A stretch of DNA of 64,000 nt from an uncultured Paracoccaceae bacterium (GTDB taxonomy: Bacteria > Pseudomonadota > Alphaproteobacteria > Rhodobacterales > Rhodobacteraceae): contig CAJJBH010000018.1 of the NCBI GenBank assembly GCA_905182355.1, forward strand, positions 62,001 through 126,000. Reading direction: 5' to 3'. Below, piece by piece: positions 54,060 to 58,739 of this stretch (position 1 is the first letter of the stretch; every line of letters starts with the position of its first letter). The position numbers were made by a program, and so were the translations under genes. A model generated the notes under the pieces. It was given only the letters and a program-made list of their open reading frames with translations, did not search any database and was not told the origin of the DNA.

Positions 54060-54086
54060 CTTAACCGATGAATTTACGGAAAAAAA

Positions 54087-54114
54087 CGTCGCACATCCCT
54101 AGAGATATGCGACG
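54087..54114 (-). terminator. Terminator for the minus-strand small membrane protein gene
   Basis: CGTCGCA (54087-54093) pairs with TGCGACG (54108-54114). The six A before it read as a T-run on the minus strand, which places the end of a transcript coming from 54239. A structured 3' untranslated part (54143-54215) would lie in it. Confidence 0.65.
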
Positions 54115-54238
54115 CAAGTGAAGCGTGTCTTATGGGGACCCTGACCATTCAAAATAACGGAGGACAGGCAGTGTCTGTTACTTGCACCAATTTGGGACGG
54201 GTGCAGGGAATGGTCGGCATAAAAACGCAGGCAGAAAA

Positions 54239-54367
54239 TCAGACAAACGACGGAAGGTACAAACCAACAACTAAAATTACCATCAAAGCAGCAACGCCAA
54301 TGGCGTCTTGAAGCAGCGTGTCTTGTGAACGAACTGCGATTGTTTTGATTTGGCGAAGTGTTGTCAT
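54239..54367 (-). CDS. 42-aa membrane protein, candidate SOS gene
   Basis: ATG 54367 opens MTTLRQIKTIAVRSQDTLL followed by the hydrophobic helix IGVAALMVILVVGLYLP and ends after SFV. AAGGGAACC precedes the start. The N-terminal half is basic and amphipathic, so it would sit in the inner membrane with the tail inside. A LexA-type box (54426-54440) lies about 60 bases upstream, suggesting induction by DNA damage. Function is unknown; by analogy, small SOS membrane peptides such as SidA of Caulobacter block division. It has no obvious sequence kinship to SidA that I can show. Confidence 0.65.
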   Translation of the reverse strand: MTTLRQIKTIAVRSQDTLLQDAIGVAALMVILVVGLYLPSFV

Positions 54368-54425
54368 GTCGGTTCCCTTTGCTCTTTGTTGCACCTTTGT
54401 TCTCACTTTATTAACGCCATGTAAA

Positions 54426-54440
54426 GAACTAAATGGGAAC
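54426..54440 (-). promoter_or_regulatory. LexA-type (SOS) box
   Basis: GAAC at 54426-54429 and 54437-54440, seven bases apart, matches the alphaproteobacterial LexA site GAAC-N7-GAAC. Two further GAAC copies follow at 54447-54450 and 54457-54460, each with six-base gaps. A TAATAA at 54408-54413 on the minus strand is a possible -10 next to the box. Confidence 0.6.
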
Positions 54441-54468
54441 ATTTGTGAACAAATAGGAACCAAAACCC

Positions 54469-58739
<4,271 letters not shown>

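Follow-up and report, generated by a model that had tools for sequence, protein, structure and literature searches.

On the minus strand of the 64-kb stretch of DNA analysed here (the window), recG is followed by a compact unit made up of an array of LexA-type boxes, a gene for a 42-amino-acid (42-aa) single-helix membrane protein, and a conserved structured RNA closed by an intrinsic terminator (Table 1). The coordinates and the gene description given in the initial annotation were confirmed against the list of open reading frames (ORFs) and by rereading the sequence. That annotation had noticed the first boxes and the gene. What comes in addition is a second LexA-like site, oppositely oriented and on the far side of the promoter core; the occurrence of the gene almost throughout the family, with recG next to it nearly every time; and the structured RNA that begins after its stop codon.

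Table 1. Features of the recG-proximal unit, in window coordinates
Feature	Coordinates	Strand	Evidence
recG, upstream neighbour	54469..56559	-	ORF; stop codon 9 bases 5' of the operator array
LexA operator array 1, gene strand GTTCCTATTTGTTCACAAATGTTCCCATTTAGTTC	54426..54460	-	Sequence, conservation, matrix score 15.3
-35-like hexamer TTTACA	54420..54425	-	TTTAC in most of 121 loci; putative promoter element
-10-like hexamer GAGAAC	54399..54404	-	115/121 loci at the same spacing; putative promoter element
LexA-like box 2, opposite orientation, GAACAAAGGTGCAAC	54388..54402	-	Matrix score 13.7; one mismatch in second half-site
Shine-Dalgarno-like AAAGGGAA	54373..54380	-	Sequence
Gene for 42-aa single-helix membrane protein, stop codon included	54239..54367	-	ORF, selection, homologues, AlphaFold2
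Conserved structured RNA: closing stem, multibranch loop, unpaired CUGCCU / YGUCCC	54081..54237	-	Covariance model, folding, covariation
Intrinsic terminator closing the unit, GCGTCGCATATCTCTAGGGATGTGCGACG + T7	54080..54115	-	Sequence, folding

On the plus strand, GAAC occurs at 54426, 54437, 54447, and 54457, with spacings of N7, N6, and N6. The first two copies form the GAAC-N7-GAAC element that had been proposed ahead of the gene, found at 54426-54440, 58 bases 5' of the ATG, and the other two are the further phased copies that had been reported with it. Read along the gene strand, the array becomes four GTTC half-sites between 54460 and 54426 (spacings N6, N6, and N7), of which the last two are the canonical GTTC-N7-GTTC box. 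Two opposed LexA-like boxes bracket a promoter-like core, TTTACA-N15-GAGAAC. Box 1 abuts the -35-like hexamer and box 2 overlaps the -10-like hexamer, an arrangement that suggests tight repression. The variants of TTTAC found among 121 loci (TTGAT, TGGAC, TCGAC, and TTGCC) are those expected of a -35 element, in what we infer from sequence to be the promoter. How common is such a double box? About 97% of Caulobacter SOS promoters have a single LexA box (PMC12700426), so by that measure it is uncommon.

Counting the bare pattern says little about its function. The window has 3 copies of GAAC-N7-GAAC, where shuffles give 2.0 +/- 1.2, and the genome has 70, where the reversed control gives 115; with no excess at either scale, the pattern count was rejected as evidence for a LexA box. 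This lack of enrichment fits a chance box ahead of a spurious ORF, an explanation that is refuted by the family-wide conservation of the box, the second box, the ORF, and the RNA, and to which we give practically no credence. Conservation of the box across homologues had been set beforehand as the point on which the proposal might fall. The exact GTTC-N7-GTTC pair was found in 121 of 124 distinct Rhodobacteraceae upstream regions, and 113 of these 121 loci also have the N6 copy. In 116 loci a second site in the opposite orientation, GAAC-N7-NAAC, starts exactly 23 bases past box 1. The operator consensus is GTTCnCaAATGTTCTnAaAAAGTTCTTTACa, then about 12 variable bases, then A.aTGAGAACAAAGnnGCAACA, and in the 20 most diverged homologues fetched the operator is almost unchanged. 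The triple array plus TT lies at the small gene in 21 of 22 genomes, with 2 stray matches elsewhere and 0 for the reversed control; the operator array is essentially unique per genome. Elsewhere in the window, at 1853-1927, two near-identical GAAC-N7-GAAC matches (GAACCGGACGAGAAC and GAACCCGACGAGAAC) lie exactly 60 bases apart; they probably form an internal repeat, not a pair of LexA sites.

Which regulator reads these boxes? A position matrix was trained only on the GAAC-N7-GAAC boxes of the lexA and recA promoters of 22 family genomes, with the small gene excluded, and 420 windows from the same loci served as controls (99% point 4.9, maximum 9.7). All 30 of the 30 small-gene promoters scored above the 99% point, with best scores of 8.1 to 20.6 and a mean of 14.7 versus -7.6 for the control windows. 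The matrix usually finds two sites per promoter, on opposite strands and at a fixed 39-base offset. Because this independent lexA/recA matrix scores all 30 promoters above the 99th percentile, LexA appears to be by far the best candidate regulator. The initial annotation's proposal that the small membrane gene is under LexA-type control thus gains strong comparative support from the matrix and from box conservation, and we regard such control as very likely. The operator is conserved beyond what LexA would need, so another regulator could also act. That a different GAAC/GTTC-binding regulator reads the operator instead of LexA would be in keeping with these strongly conserved spacers and flanks and with a triple array found, bar the 2 stray matches, at no other genes in the 22 genomes; it is nevertheless quite improbable, given that the half-site, the N7 spacing, and the extended GAACA agree with the boxes that these genomes have at lexA and recA.

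In the genome under study, lexA (G000:C22:22900-23592) has its own box, GAACATGCATAGAAC, and the recA box reads GAACATAATAAGAAC. The recA promoters of the family have a conserved, opposed half-box, GTTC-N7-GATC, 5' of the LexA box; in the lexA promoter the box is followed by a further GAACAAACGnAAAC stretch. A second strong LexA-like promoter occurs in the same genome (G000:C47:40500-44500, about 1950-2357), where GAACAAAAATAGAACATAATAAGAAC, a triple GAAC array that holds two overlapping N7 boxes, and GAACAAAGGAG lie directly 5' of an ORF that opens with MSYQHHLPGVFTSEQGALKIEAP. Whether the box is lost where lexA is missing was considered as a test and dropped, many of the apparent lexA-negatives being fragmented or incomplete and the array being kept in 3 of 4 such loci. 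The main text of the paper on LexA sites in Dinoroseobacter shibae makes no mention of recG or of a small protein.

How widespread is the unit? The same GTDB family was sampled with 296 genomes, almost every one from a different genus. The 42-aa query alone found a homologue in 207 of them, and a profile search found one in 253 of the 296 genera. In a sample of the order the profile matched 55 of 61 genomes, all members of Rhodobacteraceae. Named relatives, all within this family, include Sulfitobacter, Tateyamaria, Roseobacter, Roseovarius, and Rhodovulum. Among 80 named loci, recG is directly upstream on the same strand in 79, and hisI (78 loci) and gluQRS (77 loci) lie downstream of the small gene. 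The interval between the RNA terminator and hisI varies by about 1.5 kb among loci, some having longer inserts, and the NifU-like gene that the window has in this interval is found in 19 of the 80.

Twenty genomes negative with the profile were looked at more closely. A full recG was located in 16 of them, and 12 of these 16 loci have, past recG, a box and a diverged membrane ORF of 36 to 46 aa, mostly with a D-x-L-G core. With boxes kept at loci where the protein is too diverged for the profile, the operator appears to be more stable than the protein. In two genomes the region 3' of recG is rich in AT and has just one GAAC-N7-GAAC box, together with a small membrane ORF that is very diverged; these two are possibly the fast-evolving edge of the family. 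Outside the family, the protein profile found no convincing homologue in 385 genomes of the class; the weak class-wide matches, mostly inside long ORFs, were taken as chance. A survey of 88 regions 3' of recG (one for each GTDB family and an added one from Rhodobacteraceae) did not find the arrangement of recG, box, and small gene in other families: a box was seen only at the Rhodobacteraceae region and at one unrelated gene.

The small protein (MTTLRQIKTIAVRSQDTLLQDAIGVAALMVILVVGLYLPSFV; minus strand, ATG at 54367, stop codon 54241-54239) has the evolutionary signature of a translated product. Median dN/dS is 0.17 over 1180 pairs among 65 ungapped sequences, which points to purifying selection, and 58% of the differences among the same sequences fall at third codon positions. 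By these comparative measures the small ORF is a real coding gene. AlphaFold2 predicts one helix, residues 3-41 (pLDDT 93.6), and nothing but helix. Residues 3-20 are basic and amphipathic, with a hydrophobic moment of 0.47, and residues 22-40 are uncharged and uniformly hydrophobic (moment 0.05, mean hydrophobicity 0.79). An N-in, C-out topology is predicted because positive charges are found only at the N terminus (positive-inside rule). T17, D21, G24, L36, and P39 are invariant in 30 of 30 sequences. Searches with Pfam and NCBIfam profiles gave no match to the protein up to an E value of 1.

What might such a peptide do? Granted LexA control, the chance that it is a division inhibitor seems about even to us, judging by analogy with known proteins of its kind. 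A membrane depolariser, and with it a TisB-like factor for growth arrest or persistence that lowers the proton-motive force after damage and does not act on the divisome, is unlikely. The peptide is small, basic, helical, and apparently tightly repressed, as such a factor would be, and its N-terminal segment has the amphipathic character just described. Its transmembrane (TM) helix, however, is uniformly hydrophobic, unlike the amphiphilic helix of TisB; the operator lies so close to the recG stop codon (9 bases) that there is no upstream room for a divergent, istR-like antisense antitoxin; and the invariant residues favour a specific partner. The conserved downstream RNA is on the same strand as the small gene; an antisense RNA within the ORF itself is conceivable.

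This RNA, about 160 nt long, starts 3 to 4 nt past the stop codon in most loci and ends in the intrinsic terminator. The window copy folds with -52.4 kcal/mol (z -4.24), a stability reached by 0 of 200 shuffles. Unconstrained folds give the same outer stem in 71 of 77 homologues, and the RNA body without the terminator has a mean z of -2.9. A covariance model finds one match in the window (143.6 bits) and places the RNA next to the small gene in nearly all of 99 sources; among its matches are three loci (L222, L223, and L228) whose strongly diverged proteins escaped the protein profile. The RNA alignment was fitted to the structure of the model and so leans towards it, with unconstrained folds and effect size in agreement: in 94 distinct rows, 94.2% of cells are paired (shuffles, 81.2%), both sides have changed in 29 of the 35 pairs, double-changed cells number 358 versus 88 in shuffles, and covariation is 0.320 versus 0.120 in shuffles and 0.02 to 0.04 when the structure is slid. 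The terminator helix is 98.9% paired across homologues. The CUGCCU motifs are 88% unpaired, and the UGYCY motif occurs 3.9 times per RNA versus 1.05 in shuffles; such exposed, repeated CUGCCU/YGUCCC motifs suggest a partner in trans. Regulation through base pairing between the RNA and its own 5' untranslated region (UTR) was considered and set aside, there being no preference for own over foreign partners.

A search of Rfam gave no match to the RNA up to an E value of 5 beyond chance-level, below-threshold ones. In 289 genomes of the class there were four strong RNA matches, all from Rhodobacteraceae; nine others were partial, at most 24.6 bits, and taken as chance. In these genome samples the small protein and the RNA both appear to be confined to Rhodobacteraceae. 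The parts available of the work on EcpR1 and of a Ruegeria pomeroyi small-RNA survey contained no match to this locus.

Is the RNA a separate gene? The 3' end of the ORF shows no excess synonymous constraint. The simplest view is thus that the RNA forms the 3' portion of the transcript under LexA control, and a separate RNA promoter inside the ORF, of which synonymous constraint gives no sign, was discarded. The RNA may still be independently transcribed or processed, such conservation being unusual for a mere 3' UTR. That it has a trans role of its own is a plausible suggestion, if somewhat short of probable. We doubt that it is the main product of the locus, that is, an SOS small RNA with an incidental leader ORF or a dual-function RNA whose unpaired motifs bind mRNAs or protein. 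The strong covariation and the exposure and enrichment of the motifs speak for such a role, as does the finding of the RNA 3' of the gene in almost every locus searched, the three with strongly diverged proteins among them; the clear purifying selection on the ORF means that the peptide matters as well.

Taken as a whole, the locus is probably a tightly LexA-repressed SOS unit whose peptide would block division and function like SidA. In outline, LexA would shut the unit off by binding both boxes, which together flank the promoter core and overlap it, a step strongly supported by the comparative data. RecA would trigger LexA cleavage, the promoter would fire, and one transcript of about 320 nt would carry the small ORF, then the folded RNA, then the intrinsic terminator. 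The product is well predicted as an inner-membrane peptide with a cytoplasmic, basic, amphipathic N-terminal segment, one uncharged TM helix, and almost no periplasmic tail. Going by the kind of protein it resembles, its helix may dock on a protein of septal wall synthesis (FtsW, FtsI, or FtsN) and delay division until repair is done; no sequence feature was seen that favours FtsW over another membrane partner. The double operator would silence a product that is costly when it leaks in undamaged cells, and the folded RNA may lend stability to the mRNA or be released from it as a small RNA that is co-induced. Since the gene, near-universal in Rhodobacteraceae, is missing from the Alphaproteobacteria sampled outside that family, a role in division would have to be specific to this lineage.

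A more ambitious reading, offered tentatively, is that this is a family-wide dual-function SOS transcript, which encodes a division-arresting membrane peptide and also carries a regulatory small RNA, processed from it and belonging to a new family, both controlled by LexA. If so, DNA damage would trigger a protein and an RNA effector from one molecule. To our knowledge, coupling between DNA damage and division has not been established in Rhodobacteraceae (the roseobacter family), nor is SidA known there. A widespread part of their DNA-damage response seems to have been missed so far; both the small ORF and the RNA are easily overlooked by routine annotation. With a near-universal candidate that is predicted to be under LexA control and whose place in the genome is obvious, the question of how damage and division are coupled becomes directly testable in model strains, and the attached structured RNA, absent from Rfam, would be a new SOS-linked RNA family.

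How does the unit compare with known systems? The Rhodobacteraceae recA promoter is similar in that its upstream GTTC-N7-GATC half-box is opposed to the GAAC-N7-GAAC box, and differs in its closer spacing and in having no N6 array. TisB (tisB/istR, Escherichia coli) is likewise an SOS-induced small membrane peptide, but has an amphiphilic helix and an antisense RNA antitoxin, neither of which is seen here. It is described as a membrane toxin, made in the SOS response, by which the inner membrane is depolarised (PMC8145889). YneA reaches FtsW via its TM helix, and SosA, ChiZ, and SidA have been modelled likewise (PMC13396833). YneA, SosA, and ChiZ are SOS-induced membrane division inhibitors with one TM helix, as proposed here; YneA and ChiZ have an extracytoplasmic LysM domain, whereas the present peptide is essentially without a periplasmic part. 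DidA of Caulobacter, a 71-aa protein, is another small damage-induced membrane protein and blocks late steps of division. It is LexA-independent, driven by DriD, and binds FtsN (PMC4211646), in contrast to the LexA-type boxes at the present locus.

The small protein would constitute a new family, likened by its proposed function to SidA of Caulobacter crescentus, which is set beside it by description. We know of no structured RNA reported to be attached to SidA. The small-protein family differs in length, at about 40 aa against 29, and in having no homologue detected in the other Alphaproteobacteria sampled. Its promoter has two boxes, whereas SOS promoters in Caulobacter as a rule have one LexA box (PMC12700426). 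SidA, a 29-aa SOS-induced inner-membrane protein, binds FtsW (PMC4211646). What the two have in common is an alphaproteobacterial LexA-box promoter placed ahead of a very small, single-span inner-membrane protein, here a predicted one.
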